A DNA stretch of 64,000 bases, from the NCBI RefSeq assembly GCF_000378085.1, contig NZ_KB899211.1, positions 214,071 through 278,070 of the forward strand, read 5' to 3'. The notes beneath the pieces were generated by a model. It had not been told where the DNA came from. It saw only the letters and a list, made by a program, of their open reading frames with translations, and did not search any database. The position numbers and the translations under genes were made by a program. Source of the DNA: Hoylesella loescheii DSM 19665 = JCM 12249 = ATCC 15930. Its GTDB lineage: Bacteria; Bacteroidota; Bacteroidia; Bacteroidales; Bacteroidaceae. Below are positions 7 to 53,664 of this stretch, piece after piece. Positions within the stretch are counted from its first letter, which is position 1, and every line of letters begins with the position of its first letter.

Positions 7-42
7 GTTGTATTATATCTTCATTCTACATCAAACCACAAC
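7..42 (-). CRISPR. Terminal (leader-proximal) repeat of a type II-C CRISPR array; array continues off the left edge
   Basis: A 36-bp unit, read on the minus strand, begins GTTGTGG and ends ATACAAC, the usual ends of type II-C repeats. Its first 20 nt can pair with the tracrRNA anti-repeat at 5165-5184 at 18 of 20 positions (two G-U wobbles, two U-U mismatches). This fixes the repeat and its transcription direction as leftward, the same as the cas genes. Bases 1-6 are then the start of the first spacer, and 43-133 is the leader between cas2 and the array. Only one full repeat is inside the window, so the call rests on the tracrRNA match and the position next to cas2. Confidence 0.85.
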
Positions 43-125
43 ATATACCACTTACATTACTGATATTCAACTGTTTGAAAACCATATTGGGCGATATGAA
101 GTTGTTTGATGAGGCTTATTTAATA

Positions 126-133
126 CAAAGTTA
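126..133 (-). promoter_or_regulatory. Candidate -7 element for the CRISPR array leader
   Basis: The minus strand reads TAACTTTG, a match to the Bacteroidetes -7 consensus TAnnTTTG, directly next to the cas2 stop codon. It would start an array transcript near position 119, about 75 nt before the first repeat. No clear -33 TTG is seen at the right distance, so this is only half a promoter. Confidence 0.4.
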
Positions 134-472
134 CTAAAAAAACTCTAGTTGAATGGGCTTTGGGTGTTGTTTTGCTGCAATTTCTCCCCATACGTTGATA
201 ATGCTGGAATATTGTTTATCGGTTACGGCCAAGATGCTTATCATACCTTTGGTGGGAGCAAGCGATTTAACCCGTTTGATGTGTACGTTCATGCTCTCGT
301 ATGAACCACAATAGCGTACGTACACGCTAAATTGATACATGGTGAAGCCATCGCGTTCGAGGTCTTTCCTAAAACGGGCAGCTTCTTTACGCTCAAGTTT
401 GGTGTTTGTGGGAAGGTCGAACATTAGGAAAAGCCACATGATATGGTAACGATTAAGGCGAAGGTAGGTCAT
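134..472 (-). CDS. cas2: CRISPR-associated endoribonuclease Cas2 (type II-C)
   Basis: 112 aa, usual Cas2 size. The ferredoxin-like fold start MWLFLMFDLPTNTK carries the conserved aspartate after the first beta strand, followed by a typical YQFSVYVRYC strand. Cas2 forms the structural centre of the Cas1-Cas2 integrase that inserts new spacers. An 11-residue stretch precedes MWLF. I keep the upstream ATG because it overlaps the cas1 stop codon in an ATGA arrangement, which suggests translational coupling. It is the last gene of the cas9-cas1-cas2 operon, and its stop abuts the array leader. No csn2 or cas4 is present, which fits subtype II-C. Confidence 0.95.
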   Translation of the reverse strand: MTYLRLNRYHIMWLFLMFDLPTNTKLERKEAARFRKDLERDGFTMYQFSVYVRYCGSYESMNVHIKRVKSLAPTKGMISILAVTDKQYSSIINVWGEIAAKQHPKPIQLEFF

Positions 473-1356
473 TTGAGTATAGGTAGTTGCATCTTATTGG
501 CTTCTTTTGAGAAACATTTTTCTAGAGAGGCGGTTGTCATTGTTAGGCCAACGCTGAGTGGCCGAACAACTTTCGAGAACGAGACATCGCAAAACAACAC
601 ACTGATTAGTTGGCTTTTCACGTTCTTATCTAGGCTAAGTGCTTGTTCTGCAACCAGCTTACATACTATTTCATCGACAAAAGGGCGGTAGGGTTCCATT
701 ACATCATCGGCCAAAGGAAAGGCGTCGCCTCGGTTGCGATGAAATAAACCAAAGGCGGGATGCAAGCCCGAAGCCATTAAGGCGCGTGCAGTGGCTGCAC
801 GTAGCACCGCATAACCATAGTTAAGTAAGGTGTTGAGGCCTGGTAAATCGCGGTCGCGCCGAAAGCCCTTACCAAACAATTCAGTCCAATACAGTTTAGC
901 AGCCACACCTTCCTTATTGTCCGTGTCGCCACTTTTCACGTTCATATAAAGCGGTTTTAACAGCTCTCCTCGTTTACCCAACTTGTTGAGCAAACGCGCT
1001 TGATTTCTAATCTTCGCCTCAATAAGTTGTTTCCACAATGCTTTCTTTAGTGTTTCGCTTACAGATATTTGTTCGCGGTAGCTCTCGCCTTGACTGGCGT
1101 TGGCGTGTAAGCTAAGCAAAAGAGCATTTGGCATGCCCTTTTGGTTACAGAAAATAAGGGCAACGTTGTTATCGGCCAAAGCGTTTATCAAGGGTATGGT
1201 TAGGGTTACCATTGGACTATCCACCAAAACGACCCCTAATTCTTCAATGGGAACAGTCCGACAAGCGTCGGGCTGTTCCTTTAAGGTTATCACCAGCTGT
1301 GCATTTTTTAACGAAAGGGCAGCTGGTGTTGTAAAAACGAGACATCTTTTAAGCAT
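469..1356 (-). CDS. cas1: CRISPR-associated integrase Cas1 (type II-C)
   Basis: 295 aa. An N-terminal beta domain (about residues 1-75) is followed by the helical catalytic domain. The expected metal ligands are visible: Glu near residue 159 (YWTELFG), His near 206 (GLFHRNRGDAF) and Glu near 220 (DDVMEPYRP). Cas1 cuts and joins protospacer DNA into the array with Cas2. The start overlaps the cas9 stop by 8 nt, and the stop overlaps the cas2 start, so the three genes form one compact operon. No key residue seems lost, so adaptation is probably functional. Confidence 0.96.
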   Translation of the reverse strand: MLKRCLVFTTPAALSLKNAQLVITLKEQPDACRTVPIEELGVVLVDSPMVTLTIPLINALADNNVALIFCNQKGMPNALLLSLHANASQGESYREQISVSETLKKALWKQLIEAKIRNQARLLNKLGKRGELLKPLYMNVKSGDTDNKEGVAAKLYWTELFGKGFRRDRDLPGLNTLLNYGYAVLRAATARALMASGLHPAFGLFHRNRGDAFPLADDVMEPYRPFVDEIVCKLVAEQALSLDKNVKSQLISVLFCDVSFSKVVRPLSVGLTMTTASLEKCFSKEANKMQLPILK

Positions 1357-4300
1357 GACGCTCTTTCTTCTTTATCTCCCCAAGGACGTTAAACTCAAAG
1401 TCGACACCCTCGACAAGGGCTTTAAATTGCTTATGCGAAAGCACTATGCCTTGGCGTAGAACCTCATTATTCTTATATACCCCGCTTTGCATCTTCACGT
1501 CATCTTTCTTCTGAGCGTTTTGATGAAACCTCAACTCAATATTACCATAGAGGTACGTCTTCCCATTCTTTACATCCTTTTTGGTATTAATTCCTGTGAC
1601 CTTATATAGTCGTCTTACCAAATCTTGTGGATTGTCAAACAAAATCTCTTCGGGAGAGTTCTCATAAAAAAGTACTTGTGTTCCTCGTTTCAGTACGGCT
1701 AATAAAGGGAGATTTCGTTCTTCACTCCGTTCAGGTACAAGTGGGGCTGCTTTACCTTTGTTGCTCCTCTTTAAACAAGCGGCAGACTCCAAGTTGTTGA
1801 CAACACAAAAATCGCGTTCTTTTTTCCCTTTCAATTCTCCCTCATAGATGGCCAATAGATAATTACTTTCGTTTTCTACACAGAAAAATTGTTTGTATTC
1901 CTTTGAGGAGAGATCGCGCTGTTGGCGAATCTTTAAACGCTCCTGAGCTTTCACATAGTACCTCACCTTATTTATCCTTATGCCTTTTTCCTTATTCATA
2001 AATATGGGTTCGGTAATGGCTGTCTTGAAGTTCTTACCGGCAATAGCCTCCTTTATCTTTTCCTTTACGGCTTGGTCTACGATTTTTTCAAGCTCCGCTT
2101 CATTCTCGAACTTATTTAAAGGTTTACGAAGCACATAGCGAATTTCGCCATCTTGCTCGATAGCACCATAATAGGTGTCTTTGTGAAGCGAGCCTCTGGC
2201 CGTATCGCCTTGAGCGAGATACTTACCCGTTGCAGTTCGCACGCGCTTCTTGGCTTGTTTGGGCATGTTGTCTTTGGTGAGGTGTTTCACCAAGAGCGAT
2301 TGCTCTATGGCCAACACATCTTCGGTAAAGGTGGGCCAAGGTTTATTGAAATGGGGCTTGGTGGTTGTGCCGCGCCATTGGAAAAGCTCTTCATCATGAT
2401 AGTATTGAGCCATCTTGTCGTATTCGGCTTTACCAATACAGGCAATGGTTATGGCGTCGATGCAATGGTGGCAATGGTTAAGTCGGGATTTCTTTTCGTA
2501 CTCGCCTTGAAGTCCCCACATACGCCTAAACTCGGCTGTGGTTACGCCTTTCACCACGTAGACGTTGCTCTTGTTGGGATTTTGTTCGTTGTGGAAGAGC
2601 GACTTTAAGAACAATCCCGCATACTTTGATACCAAACCGATGCCCGCTCCTTGACGGCGACTGAACCCTTCGGGTACTTCGGTCATCGTAAATCGGCTGT
2701 ATTTGCCCTGCCAATAATCTAGATCCATCTTCAGACGATGGCGCTTTTGTATCAGCCGATCTTTCATTGCTTTCTCCATACCACCATAGGTGCGTATCTT
2801 GTCTAGCTGTTTTCGCAGGTCTTCGCACTTGCTTTTCCAATGGTCAATTCTTACCAATATGTCAGCATGGTTAGATAGTTGGGAGGGTAGTTGCGCACCT
2901 TTCACCTGCCTATTAAAAGTGGCATCGCAGAGCGTTAGGTTCATTTGCGTGCTGTCGCCACCAACACTTCGGGGAACGGTATGTTCGATATCGAACTTGG
3001 GATTGTCGCCAAGGAAATCGCAGATGCCAATCTGGGTGCCTGTATATAAGCACAGATGGTCTTGCTCTTCCCACAATTGGAACTTGAGAATATCGGTGTC
3101 TGTGGGTTCTATCTCTTTGTGACATTCACTCTTATAGAGGGCGATGATGTCATCGCGATATTGTTTTCGTTTCTTCTCTTGTTCTCTTTGGTAGTCGGCA
3201 ATGGCCTTGCGCTTGTTGGCGTCGTTCAGTTCGCGGGCGTATTCTACATGCACCTCGGTGTTGCGGTCTATAATGCCATCGCGCAACAGCTGGTTAACAA
3301 CACTGCGCAAGATGTGCAGCGAGCGCATGGCCATGGGGTTGCGAATGGCGTTGGTACGGGGACTACCCAACTGAAACACGCCCATCTTGTTGAGCTTTGC
3401 ATCGGGATAGGTCTCTATCATCGAGGGGTGATAAAGCGCATCGGCTGCGCCAGGGCGCAGGTCGATCACGTCTTGCAAGTGACTTTTAATGCAGAAGTCT
3501 ATCGTACCCTCAACGCCACGGTCTTTGGGGTTATAGTTTTCGATAATCTCCATTAGTCCCGAAAGTATCATCTCGCGTTTGTCGGCATCGTTCCAAACGG
3601 CTTTTGTAACGATGTCGGGTATCTTGGCCAAGTGCACGGCATGTGCATAAATGAACCCTTGACGCAAGAAAGGCAAGATGTTGCGAATGGCTTTAAGGCT
3701 TAACGAAGCAAAGCCATGAGGAAGTTTAGCGTTAGCGAACTTCGTGGCGCTGGCTTCATCGAGTTGCAACTTTTCGGTGGCGAAAGCCTTTAACTTGTCT
3801 TTCGAAGAAAATGAATAGAGCACATTCCAAACATCATCGGCCATTTCGTCGATGGTTTTCGTACCGTTTTTCTTTTCAACGGCCGTGTATGTCTCGGCAA
3901 TGGCTGTCTGCCAATCACTGCCGAAGATGTCTATCAGCTGTGCAGTTACAGGACACCCCGACACGCCTTGTTGCATGCGGTAGTTAAACTTGAATGGTTT
4001 CTCGCCTGCATCCTTATACCAAGCATAGTTGTTTTTTCCCGCCAACGCCTTTGCAATGTCTTCGAAATCGAAGTTGGGTTTAGACTTTCTGAAGAATAGT
4101 GGCCATATCTTTTCGCGTTCGTCTTCGTTTAGAGGCCGTAGCGAAGTGTCGTTTGGGGTTTGTATCTTGACGTTATTGAGGAAGCAGAGCATCCTGAACG
4201 CTTCGTAATCGGGGTGCGATTCGGCGCAACGCGGCTTCTTTGGCTCGAAGGTACACTTGCCTACACCCTTGCGTTGCGACTTTAACGGGCGTTGGAAATA

Positions 4301-5044
4301 TATGGCCCTTTGCAGTGCTTCAACCCATTTGGGATCTAGTTCTTGTTTTTCGCAGATAGCCAAAAACTCCTTTTTATAGTGTTCTTCCCTGTCGGTGTAT
4401 CGGCTTCTTAGCTTAATGGTGTTGCCGTGTTGCTTGTAGAGCTGATAGAAATACTCGCCTAGAAACTCGCAACCTGCCTTTTCCATCTCGACAGAAAGCT
4501 CTGCTATGCCCGATTTAACCTTGCCCGACTCGTCGGAATCGGCACTGGTGTCGAGCCTGTTGCTAAGAAATCCACGACGTTGCGCCAAGTGATAGAATGC
4601 CCGACCAAGAAGAAAGCGCTGGCTTTGGTCGGTAAGGTCGAGCTTTTGGGTTAGGCAACGATGCCGGCAATAATAGGGATTGTTCTCTTCGGCACTACCC
4701 GAACGCTGCCAAAGCATAAAGTCATCGGTGAGCGGATAAGTTTTCTTAGCCTTCCATAGGTTAAGTTGTTCGTTGGAAAGATAAGGGCATAGGTCGAGTT
4801 CTACAAGTACTTTCAGCGTATCAATTTTGTGTAGACGTCGCCTGGAATAATGTACTCGCAATGCTTTGTGCGCAGTTCTTTCGGCTGCTTTGGACGATTC
4901 GATACCTTTCTCTATCTTTACGCCTTCGGTAAAGATAACGTCGCCACGTTTCACCAGTGTGTAATTGCCGTTGGCATCTCTGTCTACCACAGCCCAAGCA
5001 AGGCTGTTGGTGCCTGTATCAAGGCCTAATATTCGTGTAATCAT
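1349..5044 (-). CDS. cas9: CRISPR-associated endonuclease Cas9, compact type II-C
   Basis: 1231 aa. RuvC-I is at the N-terminus (GLDTGTNSLAWAVV, catalytic Asp9), followed by an arginine-rich bridge helix (HYSRRRLHKID, about residues 65-80). RuvC-II (EVHVEYARELN) is near residue 598, HNH (DIEHTVPRSVGGD) near 686, and RuvC-III (HHCIDAITIA) near 858. The C-terminal 330 residues should hold the wedge and PAM-interacting domains. All catalytic residues are present. This is an RNA-guided double-strand DNA nuclease using the tracrRNA encoded divergently 120 nt upstream. The size is at the small end for Cas9 and fits II-C, as does the absence of csn2. The PAM cannot be read from the sequence. Confidence 0.97.
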   Translation of the reverse strand: MITRILGLDTGTNSLAWAVVDRDANGNYTLVKRGDVIFTEGVKIEKGIESSKAAERTAHKALRVHYSRRRLHKIDTLKVLVELDLCPYLSNEQLNLWKAKKTYPLTDDFMLWQRSGSAEENNPYYCRHRCLTQKLDLTDQSQRFLLGRAFYHLAQRRGFLSNRLDTSADSDESGKVKSGIAELSVEMEKAGCEFLGEYFYQLYKQHGNTIKLRSRYTDREEHYKKEFLAICEKQELDPKWVEALQRAIYFQRPLKSQRKGVGKCTFEPKKPRCAESHPDYEAFRMLCFLNNVKIQTPNDTSLRPLNEDEREKIWPLFFRKSKPNFDFEDIAKALAGKNNYAWYKDAGEKPFKFNYRMQQGVSGCPVTAQLIDIFGSDWQTAIAETYTAVEKKNGTKTIDEMADDVWNVLYSFSSKDKLKAFATEKLQLDEASATKFANAKLPHGFASLSLKAIRNILPFLRQGFIYAHAVHLAKIPDIVTKAVWNDADKREMILSGLMEIIENYNPKDRGVEGTIDFCIKSHLQDVIDLRPGAADALYHPSMIETYPDAKLNKMGVFQLGSPRTNAIRNPMAMRSLHILRSVVNQLLRDGIIDRNTEVHVEYARELNDANKRKAIADYQREQEKKRKQYRDDIIALYKSECHKEIEPTDTDILKFQLWEEQDHLCLYTGTQIGICDFLGDNPKFDIEHTVPRSVGGDSTQMNLTLCDATFNRQVKGAQLPSQLSNHADILVRIDHWKSKCEDLRKQLDKIRTYGGMEKAMKDRLIQKRHRLKMDLDYWQGKYSRFTMTEVPEGFSRRQGAGIGLVSKYAGLFLKSLFHNEQNPNKSNVYVVKGVTTAEFRRMWGLQGEYEKKSRLNHCHHCIDAITIACIGKAEYDKMAQYYHDEELFQWRGTTTKPHFNKPWPTFTEDVLAIEQSLLVKHLTKDNMPKQAKKRVRTATGKYLAQGDTARGSLHKDTYYGAIEQDGEIRYVLRKPLNKFENEAELEKIVDQAVKEKIKEAIAGKNFKTAITEPIFMNKEKGIRINKVRYYVKAQERLKIRQQRDLSSKEYKQFFCVENESNYLLAIYEGELKGKKERDFCVVNNLESAACLKRSNKGKAAPLVPERSEERNLPLLAVLKRGTQVLFYENSPEEILFDNPQDLVRRLYKVTGINTKKDVKNGKTYLYGNIELRFHQNAQKKDDVKMQSGVYKNNEVLRQGIVLSHKQFKALVEGVDFEFNVLGEIKKKERHA

Positions 5045-5121
5045 AATCGTTAGTTATGGAGTTGTTTGTTCCTAGTTGTTTATTATCGTATTAAGATTTA
5101 GGTGTAAAATTACATTAAATA

Positions 5122-5153
5122 TTTGGTAGAGCCAAATGTTATTGCTAAATTTG
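5122..5153 (+). promoter_or_regulatory. Promoter of the tracrRNA
   Basis: A -33 TTTG at 5122-5125 and a -7 TAAATTTG at 5146-5153 are separated by 20 nt, an excellent match to the Bacteroidetes sigma-ABfr promoter. The predicted start is near 5160, just before the anti-repeat. The element lies in the cas9-tracrRNA divergent region. Confidence 0.75.
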
Positions 5154-5159
5154 CAGCAT

Positions 5160-5240
5160 AAGATATTCTACATCTTATCACAATAAGGCTATATGCCGAA
5201 GGGCTTAGACCCTATTGCCCCTCTTCGGAGGGGCTTATGT
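5160..5240 (+). ncRNA. tracrRNA of the type II-C CRISPR system
   Basis: The anti-repeat at 5165-5184 pairs with the 5' half of the CRISPR repeat at 7-42 (18 of 20 positions). It is followed by a short GGC/GCC hairpin (5187-5197), a second hairpin AGGG/CCCT (5200-5213), and a 7-bp perfect stem with a UUCG loop closed by C-G (5217-5234) that ends in a T-rich stretch and acts as terminator. This order, anti-repeat then hairpins, is standard for tracrRNA. It is divergent from cas9 and has its own promoter. The exact 5' end is inferred. Confidence 0.88.
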
Positions 5241-5245
5241 GTTTT
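5217..5245 (+). terminator. Rho-independent terminator of the tracrRNA
   Basis: A perfect 7-bp stem GCCCCTC/GAGGGGC with a TTCG loop (5217-5234) is followed by TTATGTGTTTT. The cUUCGg tetraloop is exceptionally stable. Confidence 0.8.
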
Positions 5246-5386
5246 ATAACGTGCTCTAAGCGGAGTGGCATTGCTTTAGCTATAAAGTATAGTCGTTCAA
5301 TCTGATTGCAGTAAAAAAATACGTTATAAACATGTTTTGTTATTCAGAATAATTTGTTTATGCCTGTTTGAGATAAGAGTAACGGC

Positions 5387-5507
5387 GTGAGTTCGGGATA
5401 AGCGACGATGTTTTTTTGAGCAAAATTAGATAAGAACAAAAGGCTACCTCACCAATTAGGGCTACGCGGTAGTTAGCACAACGAATTTCTCTTATCCCAA
5501 ATTCTCG
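5387..5507 (+). repeat. MITE-like element, copy 1
   Basis: A 121-bp unit is bounded by imperfect terminal inverted repeats: GAGTTCGGGATAAG at the left, CTTATCCCAAATTCTC at the right. Its interior (GCAAAATTAGATAAGAA, then GGCTACCTCACCAA) recurs in reverse complement in copy 2 at 5848-5993. No ORF is present, as expected for a non-autonomous element. No target-site duplication could be assigned. Confidence 0.6.
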
Positions 5508-5650
5508 TAGCGTTTGATATTAGCTTGGCACTATCTAGGTGGCTCATTCCACAGCCTCTCACCCCCAACTAATCACCCTTCCTACCTCCAAACGCCATCT
5601 TTCGTTCCCCACGTTATAAGCTCGTGTAGTGAGCTTTTTAACCTCTCGCC

Positions 5651-5746
5651 TTGTTACAGCTAAGATGGAACCTTGTTCCAGATAAGTTGGAACAGTGTTC
5701 CAATTCAACTGGAACAGCATTCCAGATGACATGGAACAGCCGTCCA
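5651..5746 (+). repeat. 96-bp four-dyad element, copy A
   Basis: Units beginning TGGAAC at 5666, 5688, 5710 and 5732 repeat at an exact 22-bp step, with a 15-bp half unit before them (5651-5665, degenerate). Each unit has TGGAA-N5-TTCCA followed by N7, so the whole reads as four TTCCA-N7-TGGAA dyads. The same frame recurs at 18727, 29316, 41089 and 53234. It is non-coding and lies in a repeat-rich spacer between genes in tandem orientation. Confidence 0.85.
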
Positions 5747-5847
5747 AAGCATATATAACACGGTGGTTAATGTAATAATGCATAATCAAGGCTTAGAAAG
5801 GGCATTTTCGGGACTATGAAAATGCGAACGATGGAATGGTTAATTGG

Positions 5848-5993
5848 CGAGTTCGGGATAAGGAACAAATCATCATAGCCTATGTACATGTGCGGGATGT
5901 TGCGCCAACCGCCACGCGGTAGTTGGTGAGGTAGCCATGCGTTTCTTATCTAATTTTGCGTCAAAAAACACCGCCTCTTATCCCGAATTTACG
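5848..5993 (-). repeat. MITE-like element, copy 2 (inverted relative to copy 1)
   Basis: A 146-bp unit has ends CGAGTTCGGGATAAG and CTTATCCCGAATTTACG. The reverse complement aligns with copy 1 through the blocks GATAAG, GCAAAATTAGATAAGAA and GGCTACCTCACCAA, and is about 25 bp longer in the interior. The two copies flank the 96-bp element and could form a large hairpin or recombine to invert the segment between them. Confidence 0.6.
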
Positions 5994-6485
5994 TTAAGCT
6001 ATGTACGGGTTCTAATGACCGATTGGGGGTTAAATGATGTCGTAATAGGCATTTGATATAAAAAGCCCCAGTTTTAGGCAGGGCATTGAATGGGCGATTG
6101 TCGGCGTTTAACTTAGACAATAGGTCCATTTAGTGCCCTTAACCTAACACAGGGGCGGGTTATATAACGGCCTTTTTAGTTTTGGCCGCATACAATAAGC
6201 AGTCTGTTGTGTGGCTTTCGCCTTGAAAGTTTGGCATCGAAGCCTTGAAGATGGTTATAAAAACCATCAAAGAATTAATGGAGCAGAGAAGTTAAAAAGG
6301 GGATTCTGCCCGTACAATGGGGACATGAAGACCAACCTTCCCCCAATCTGCTTCTCTGCCTAACCTATTCTTCTCGAACCAGCTTGTTATTCCATTAATT
6401 CATCAAACCATTAAATCACAAACTTTTTTAAACTAACTCTATGATTCTAATAGTACTTGTTTTCGCGTTTAAGCGGTATTATCTG

Positions 6486-18726: not shown

Positions 18727-18822
18727 TTGTTATCGCTTAGCTGGAATGGTGTTCCAGATTATCTGGAAGGCTGTTCCATTTCATCTGGAAGGTTGTTCCA
18801 TCTAATATGGAACAGGAGTCCC
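18727..18822 (+). repeat. 96-bp four-dyad element, copy B
   Basis: Units start TGGAA at 18742, 18764, 18786 and 18808 (exact 22-bp steps). The left half unit is 18727-18741, and the last half unit reads TGGAACAGGAGTCCC. It has the same frame as the other four copies and lies between divergent genes. Confidence 0.85.
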
Positions 18823-29140: not shown

Positions 29141-29818
29141 GTAATTAGCATTGTTGGTGAGCAAAGATTGCTTGTTCTTTAAAAACATGTCGATATTTTC
29201 TTCTGCCAAGCAAGATGCCCGTTTTCTATCAAAAAGGCCATGTTGCGTATCGTCGCAGGTGAGCTTTCATAACCCGCTTGTTATGCCTTTGTAGTCAACT
29301 TTATCAGTGCATGGCGTGTTCTCGCTAACTTGGAACGCTGTTCCGGATGAAATGGAATCACGTTCCAGTTGATATGGAACAGCATTCCGGATGATATGGA
29401 ACAGGGTTCCAGCTTATCGATTGTAACCCTCTTGTTTATATAGAATAGCATCTGCAACGTTTCAATAGGTGCTTGATGTTAAGCTGTTGATTCCTAAAAG
29501 AGCAATGATGGGATGTTGATCTCTGTTTTTTGGTGGTGCGATAACTGACTTTTGAGGAACGAAAAAGAGTGCGTCCCACCTTTATTCACGCTCCTATACT
29601 TGTGCTTTTCTCGTTCGTCGAAAAGCATGTTTCGCCTTTCCGTCTGGCTAAAAGTTCCGTTCAGCTGATGCACATTCTTGGCTAAGGCGAAGCCCAAGCA
29701 AGCTTGGCGTTGTTCGTATGCCTTAACAAAAAAGTTCATGAGTTGATGTCCGTGCGACACCCAACCCATGAACTTTAATTGTTTATATGCTTATAAGCTT
29801 GCTAATTCGTAGTTTTGC
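29141..29818. other. Convergent spacer with a 96-bp element
   Basis: It contains 96-bp element copy C (29316-29411). A minus ORF at 29494-29769 (91 aa) has no recognisable domain or promoter and is left out. Nothing else is seen. Confidence 0.5.
29316..29411 (+). repeat. 96-bp four-dyad element, copy C
   Basis: Units start TGGAA at 29331, 29353, 29375 and 29397 (22-bp steps). The left half unit is 29316-29330 (degenerate), and the right end reads TGGAACAGGGTTCCA. It lies between convergent genes, so a promoter role is unlikely for this copy. Confidence 0.85.
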
Positions 29819-41088: not shown

Positions 41089-41184
41089 TTGTTCCATGTT
41101 ATCTGGACTCTTGTTCCAGTTGATATGGAACAGGATTCCAGATGATAAGGAACACGGTTCCAACTTAGCTGGACCAAGACGGGA
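41089..41184 (+). repeat. 96-bp four-dyad element, copy D
   Basis: The left half unit TTGTTCCATGTTATC (41089-41103) is intact, and units start at 41104, 41126 and 41148 at 22-bp steps. The last half unit (41170-41184) is degenerate. Compared with A-C, the linker GCTAAGT (read on the minus strand) sits at the right, so this copy may be inserted in the opposite orientation. It lies between divergent genes. Confidence 0.8.
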
Positions 41185-52924: not shown

Positions 52925-53233
52925 GCGTCGCACAACCTCCCGCACACATCCTGTTTTCTTCTCCTTCGCGCCGTGTCCGTCATGTTGCAGTCGTGCGCAT
53001 AGTAGCCATTCGTGAACCGTTTACATGATATAGATAAATTACAAACAGATGCGCCAGCGTGTCCATAGCAGCTCTTTGGAAGCTGTTTACATGGGGCTGC
53101 ATCTCCATTAGCCTATCGTTGCCATGCCCATCCTTTTCTTTTAATGGGCATTTGTGGGCCCCATGTATCCCATTTCATCGCCAAACGAAAGGGCCTGAAT
53201 TAGCCTTTGTACAGAGCCTTTTATTCTCCCGCC

Positions 53234-53329
53234 TTGTTCCATCTTAGTTGGAACAGTATTCCATGTCATCCGGAACCTTGTTCCAACTCATCTGGAACAA
53301 GGTTCCAACTAAGATGGAACAGCAGTACC
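53234..53329 (+). repeat. 96-bp four-dyad element, copy E
   Basis: The half unit TTGTTCCATCTTAGT (53234-53248) is followed by units at 53249, 53271, 53293 and 53315 at 22-bp steps (the second begins CGGAAC). This is the best preserved copy: four TTCCA-N7-TGGAA dyads with only one base changed in the arms. It lies between convergent genes. Confidence 0.87.
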
Positions 53330-53664
53330 AATGAACTGTAACGCGTCGATAGGTATTAAAGCAGTGCTTTATCCCTTAACTTTCGGTTCCCAAGAACTCA
53401 TCTTCAATATGCCATCATTTCGTTTGGGCGGATGATAAAGATTAGAAAGTGTATGCATGTTTGGGATAAGATGGTGTATAACCTAAGCGCGATTAGATAC
53501 GCGAGTTTGAGATAAGACACAACTGCCACCCTGTAATTAGCACAATGTGCCTCATTTGTAGGCAGATTGTTATAAGCTGTTTGATAATTTCGAATTGGCG
53601 TAATAAAGCTGCCCTAACCGCAAAAGAGAACGTTAAATAAGGGTGGGCAACTGGGAGAAACGGG

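Follow-up and report, generated by a model that had tools for sequence, protein, structure and literature searches.

In type II-C tracrRNAs of Neisseria and Campylobacter, the anti-repeat ends in ACAAUAAGGC, and next come a nexus-like stem and then a terminator hairpin. For Bacteroidetes, the accessible text of a 2022 study described a type II-C tracrRNA model, CRISPRCas_38, which lay in this phylum in 578/599 cases, occurred only in II-C systems, was typically ≤100 bases upstream of cas9 and carried an anti-repeat matching II-C repeats (PMC9067536). According to the same text, Rfam contained a single tracrRNA family (PMC9067536). In the type II-C locus of Flavobacterium psychrophilum, repeat-encoded promoters were proposed (PMC10309648).

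The RNA gene analyzed here lies in a 64-kb stretch of DNA (the whole stretch that was analyzed, hereafter the window). When compared by description, it shares with CRISPRCas_38 the phylum, the II-C type and the place upstream of cas9. As far as that text describes it, the window RNA matches an already known Bacteroidetes II-C tracrRNA kind and its identity is ordinary; array polarity and a predicted self-hairpin at the 5' end are what the present analysis adds. The layout of the Neisseria and Campylobacter RNAs, from the anti-repeat ending in ACAAUAAGGC through the nexus-like stem to the terminator hairpin, recurs here. The F. psychrophilum locus (PMC10309648) and the window have in common cas9-cas1-cas2, a tracrRNA beside cas9 and TAnnTTTG promoters; a Flavobacterium Cas9 (L024) was 31% identical to the window Cas9.

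The tracrRNA gene and its predicted transcript

The region 5122-5246 on the plus strand is almost certainly the whole gene for a tracrRNA that serves a type II-C CRISPR-Cas9 system of Bacteroidota. The evidence in hand comprises sequence, conservation, covariation, gene context and array polarity, from which we infer transcription, processing and Cas9 loading. The following parts were recognized.

5122-5125, plus strand: promoter -33 element TTTG, spaced 20 nt from TAnnTTTG
5146-5153, plus strand: promoter -7 element TAAATTTG (Bacteroidota TAnnTTTG), at a near-equal distance in all close relatives
5158-5240, plus strand: predicted tracrRNA transcript, its start placed 4-5 nt past TTTG, at 5157-5158
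5158-5178, plus strand: predicted 5' self-hairpin, with arm ATAAGAT (5158-5164), loop ATTCTAC (5165-5171) and arm ATCTTAT (5172-5178), based on folding and on other lineages
5165-5184, plus strand: anti-repeat, pairing with the repeat at 18/20 positions with G-U allowed
5187-5197, plus strand: hairpin 1, nexus-like, GGC/GCC, GGCTATATGCC; pairs invariant among 47 distinct sequences
5200-5213, plus strand: hairpin 2, AGGG/CCCT, AGGGCTTAGACCCT; 2/4 pairs covary
5217-5234, to 5245 with the T-run, plus strand: terminator hairpin GCCCCTC-TTCG-GAGGGGC with a C(UUCG)G loop; 7/8 pairs covary, and a terminator scanner matched it

A promoter, a nexus-like stem and a terminator 3' of the anti-repeat, as in a tracrRNA, were all present, and covariance model R1 matched 5158-5239 at 103.9 bits. 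The double motif TTTG-N20-TAnnTTTG occurred 5 times in the 64-kb window, with 1.2 occurrences expected. The T-run 3' of the terminator hairpin was poor (TTATGTGTTTT). The first-pass annotation had listed the promoter, the 18/20 anti-repeat, two hairpins and the UUCG terminator, all of which were found; it had missed the self-hairpin at 5158-5178. A second promoter-like site was spotted by eye at 5105-5112 on the minus strand (TAATTTTA), a weak candidate cas9 -7 element that was one base off the consensus.

The RNA would begin near 5158 and end past the terminator hairpin at 5217-5234. Its anti-repeat would pair with every repeat of the pre-crRNA, itself made leftward from a promoter just beyond the cas2 stop. 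If the system works like type II systems already studied, the duplex would then be cut by a host enzyme, for example RNase III, and hairpins 1-3 would hold the dual RNA in Cas9.

cas genes and CRISPR array

The tracrRNA belongs to an ordinary Prevotella-type Cas9 immune system, with the following genes and array parts.

1349-5044, minus strand: cas9, 1231 aa, HNH and RuvC-III (TIGR01865, 420 bits; PF13395, PF18541, PF18470)
469-1356, minus strand: cas1, type II (TIGR03639, 279 bits)
134-472, minus strand: cas2 (TIGR01573)
126-133, minus strand: -7 element TAACTTTG of the array leader promoter, directly next to the cas2 stop
43-125, minus strand: leader of the array, predicted to be transcribed
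7-42, minus strand: leader-proximal CRISPR repeat, 36 nt, GTTGTGGTTTGATGTAGAATGAAGATATAATACAAC; the array runs on into an N gap

Membership in type II-C was indicated by a Cas9 with HNH and RuvC domains, and no cas gene besides cas1 and cas2 was found between cas9 and the repeat. The nearest Cas9 found was that of Prevotella conceptionensis (87%), and Cas9 structures in the PDB were remote matches only. At 1,231 aa the protein is not compact, as the first-pass annotation had called it; the tracrRNA offers a guide scaffold usable for a mid-sized Prevotella Cas9. Another, longer Cas9 (1,426-1,441 aa open frame) with a different tracrRNA beginning was observed in Prevotella at L046 (G025:C60) and L031 (G035:C31), and G025 additionally has a Cas9 of the window type.

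Of the array, the window shows one full repeat together with 6 nt of a spacer. The rest is lost in 1,971 N (L009:12030-14000) that reach right up to the first window position, and the repeat is single-copy in the assembly. Arrays were present in most relatives, and their repeats paired with their own anti-repeats. On the crRNA strand, 13/14 loci including the window had TAnnTTTG 90-93 nt ahead of the first repeat, and the 14th had it at -109; such a TAnnTTTG was found in 7.6% of shuffled leaders. Degenerate repeats lay at the array 3' end in most complete arrays of relatives. In L057 (G008:C11), the array was inverted relative to cas9-cas1-cas2; the leader promoter (-93) had moved along with it, and a degenerate repeat lay beside cas2. 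The position of the leader promoter, the degenerate 3' repeats and the G008 inversion therefore indicate, at the level of sequence, that leftward transcription of the array from a single leader promoter is the most likely case. The first-pass annotation had named the same direction, which is now upheld by evidence that it lacked, namely the leader promoter at 126-133 on the minus strand and the degenerate far-end repeats in relatives. In II-C arrays described previously, a promoter is present in each repeat and growth takes place at the last repeat (PMC12080349). In contrast, the loci compared here have one leader promoter, ~91 nt ahead of the first repeat, and the degenerate repeats of relatives lie 3'; with such a polarity, the present branch does not seem to be covered by the repeat-promoter model of II-C.

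On the other side of the tracrRNA gene, a 600-bp non-coding interspersed element was observed at 5386-5994, with ~40 copies in the 3.5-Mb genome. Copies of its core (5490-5862) were 79-89% identical. Inverted repeats of 51 and 36 nt form the outer parts of the element, and at 5652-5739 it contains palindromic units of 22 nt, TGTTCCAn7TGGAACAG. It had no Rfam match. Partial copies were located at 18750-18814, 29324-29404, 41090-41178 and 53208-53331.

Repeat pairing, conservation and covariation

Co-folding of the repeat with the tracrRNA, a check put forward in the first-pass annotation, gave a lower stem of 8 bp and an upper stem of 11 bp, separated by a 2x2 U-U internal loop, with a duplex energy of -23.8 kcal/mol. 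Within the 64-kb window, 18/20 pairing was also reached at three other minus-strand sites and 17 at many, most shuffled 20-mers attained 18/20 somewhere, and the duplex energy was matched elsewhere. Both values are attainable by chance in 64 kb and were rejected as stand-alone proof; the earlier identification is confirmed, but anti-repeat pairing by itself would have left it unproven.

The same RNA was present upstream of and divergent to cas9 in 16/16 close relatives, and 57/63 loci examined among the wider matches were divergent to an adjacent cas9. The covariance model had matches in 43/393 Bacteroidales, 37/399 family and 21/395 phylum genomes. Among 47 distinct sequences, 99.4% of cells were paired, and the covariation score was 0.483, compared with 0.139 in shuffled and 0.06-0.10 in slid alignments. 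No match to the tracrRNA was found in Rfam at E≤1. The anti-repeat pairs with the repeat of its own system, and compensatory changes were seen in relatives, such as GTTGCGG with TCGCAAT in L011 and GTAGGAA with TTCCTAC in L029. Although their repeats differ, most lineages for which an array was verified had the same pairing geometry as the window (8 bp, 2x2 loop, upper stem). The position beside cas9, the conservation in all close relatives and the covariation place the tracrRNA identity beyond chance, and the first-pass view that the RNA defines the guide scaffold is supported. That the complementarity is coincidental and the locus not a tracrRNA, a reading that the recurrence of 18/20 and -23.8 kcal/mol elsewhere in the window would favor, is countered by conservation, covariation and gene context, is ruled out by the comparison with relatives and has a negligible probability.

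Several variants were observed among the relatives. In an alternative architecture (L045, L060, L062, L069, L071 and L080), TAnnTTTG overlaps the anti-repeat, and the predicted start is ~17 nt before the anti-repeat end, leaving no 5' arm. In G666, besides the cas9-linked copy in L139, a second tracrRNA copy without a TAnnTTTG promoter lies at ~4330 of L138 (G666:C24), ~4 kb beyond the distal array end. At ~6565-6620 of L140 (G670:C62), one complete inverted CRISPR repeat takes the place of the promoter and is fused directly to a tracrRNA copy; the 9.2 kb covered contained no cas9, cas1 or cas2 match, and the arrangement looks like an ectopic repeat-tracr module. Two same-strand copies with different 5' arms are 1.3 kb apart in L082 (G386:C5; 1501 and 2844), with one cas9.

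A predicted self-hairpin at the 5' end

The predicted RNA starts with ATAAGAT, which forms 7 bp with ATCTTAT inside its own anti-repeat. The 7-nt loop exposes AUUCUAC, complementary to GUAGAAU of the repeat. Before the crRNA arrives, the tracrRNA 5' end is probably folded back onto the anti-repeat (5158-5178), and the seed UUCUAC would then sit in the loop; what the fold does is something that we infer. Because the hairpin is weak (~-3 kcal/mol) next to the duplex, the crRNA would open it easily. Other arm/anti-repeat pairs were GATTAAA/TTTAATC, GATAAA/TTTATC, ATAAGAAC/GTTCTTAT, AGAACA/TGTTCT, AAGAAAAAA/TTTTTTCTT and GTGATAA/TTATCAC, suggesting that the hairpin is kept across the phylum with different sequences that follow the repeats of each lineage. 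A literature search that covered mostly papers outside subscription returned no account of such a 5' fold in tracrRNAs, and the accessible text on CRISPRCas_38 (PMC9067536) makes no mention of a 5' self-hairpin; the feature was apparently undescribed before.

Tentatively, with a probability somewhat short of even, we read the hairpin as a lock: in Bacteroidota II-C tracrRNAs, the 5' nucleotides would keep the anti-repeat closed, and the fold would open once the repeat of a crRNA has bound to the exposed loop. Repeat, anti-repeat and arm would then co-evolve, since the anti-repeat must serve two exclusive partners. Such a lock may protect the 5' end, bar Cas9 from taking up tracrRNA alone or prevent misfolding.

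A by-product of AT-rich sequence with no role is the strongest alternative, and it is in keeping with the weakness of the hairpin, with its absence or reduction to just 4-5 bp in L024, L031, L095, L096 and L101, and with the architecture in which TAnnTTTG overlaps the anti-repeat and no arm is transcribed. This alternative does not account for the matching of arms to anti-repeats. The stem averaged 6.25 bp in the 60 sequences whose start could be placed, compared with 4.24 for shuffled arms. Since one arm is common to most of these 60, a swap control on the full set had little power, and distinct anti-repeats and lineages were used in its place. Arms were a better match to the anti-repeat of their own RNA than to the anti-repeats of other lineages: with 34 distinct anti-repeats, 0/1000 permutations attained the observed matching, relatedness being partly allowed for. 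In 14 systems, 13 of them with their own arrays read, the own-arm mean was 6.64 and the permuted mean 5.51 (p = 0.00005, relatedness again partly allowed for), and shuffled arms had a mean of 4.83, with 0/1000 attaining the observed value. The arm was outside the repeat-paired stretch in most of the 14 systems and yet tracked its own anti-repeat, so guide pairing fails to explain its conservation. An incidental hairpin is accordingly unlikely, while keeping appreciable weight.

The inverted repeat ATAAGAT-N7-ATCTTAT could instead be a DNA operator for a repressor, for which its location at the predicted +1 would be suitable. This is improbable: loop length varied from ~4 to 17 nt among relatives, which would shift helical phasing, and arm sequences tracked the repeat, as an operator has no reason to do. 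Still less probable, to the point of being very doubtful, is a natural single guide that steers Cas9 to repress its own promoter. Streptococcus pyogenes tracr-L is such a natural single guide, and there, too, a 5' extension base-pairs to the anti-repeat within one RNA; here the predicted start is at the arm and leaves a few nt at most 5' of it, too short for a guide, no ~11 nt guide matching a cas promoter was present, CACAAU, the partner in the lower stem, stays unpaired in the hairpin, and no further upstream TAnnTTTG was seen by eye in the intergenic region.

Of two further derivations of the arm, one was rejected and the other was not supported. The pairing geometry in the window and most lineages rules out an arm that merely extends the repeat pairing; a few extra arm-repeat pairs were predicted in L146, L149, L153 and L159. 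Palindromy inherited from the repeat is disfavored by the window arm, which by eye is unlike the complement of the repeat 3' half, and by the place of the arm beyond the paired stretch.

The self-hairpin is possibly a new regulatory feature, and one that is open to test. If functional, it would give gut and oral bacteria throughout a phylum a control of dual-RNA assembly that is built into the tracrRNA, and it would favor keeping the native 5' end, instead of trimming it, when the biology is studied.

Comparison with known hairpins

The predicted 5' self-pairing of the window tracrRNA is like that of S. pyogenes tracr-L, whereas the guide-length extension is absent here. Leader-repeat hairpins block extraneous crRNAs in type II-A systems, according to work cited in PMC12080349, and in Cas13 systems (PMC13187072). 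They resemble the predicted window hairpin in that a pairing partner of CRISPR RNA is hidden. In the type II-A and Cas13 cases the repeat in the array transcript is hidden, whereas in the window it would be the anti-repeat in the tracrRNA.
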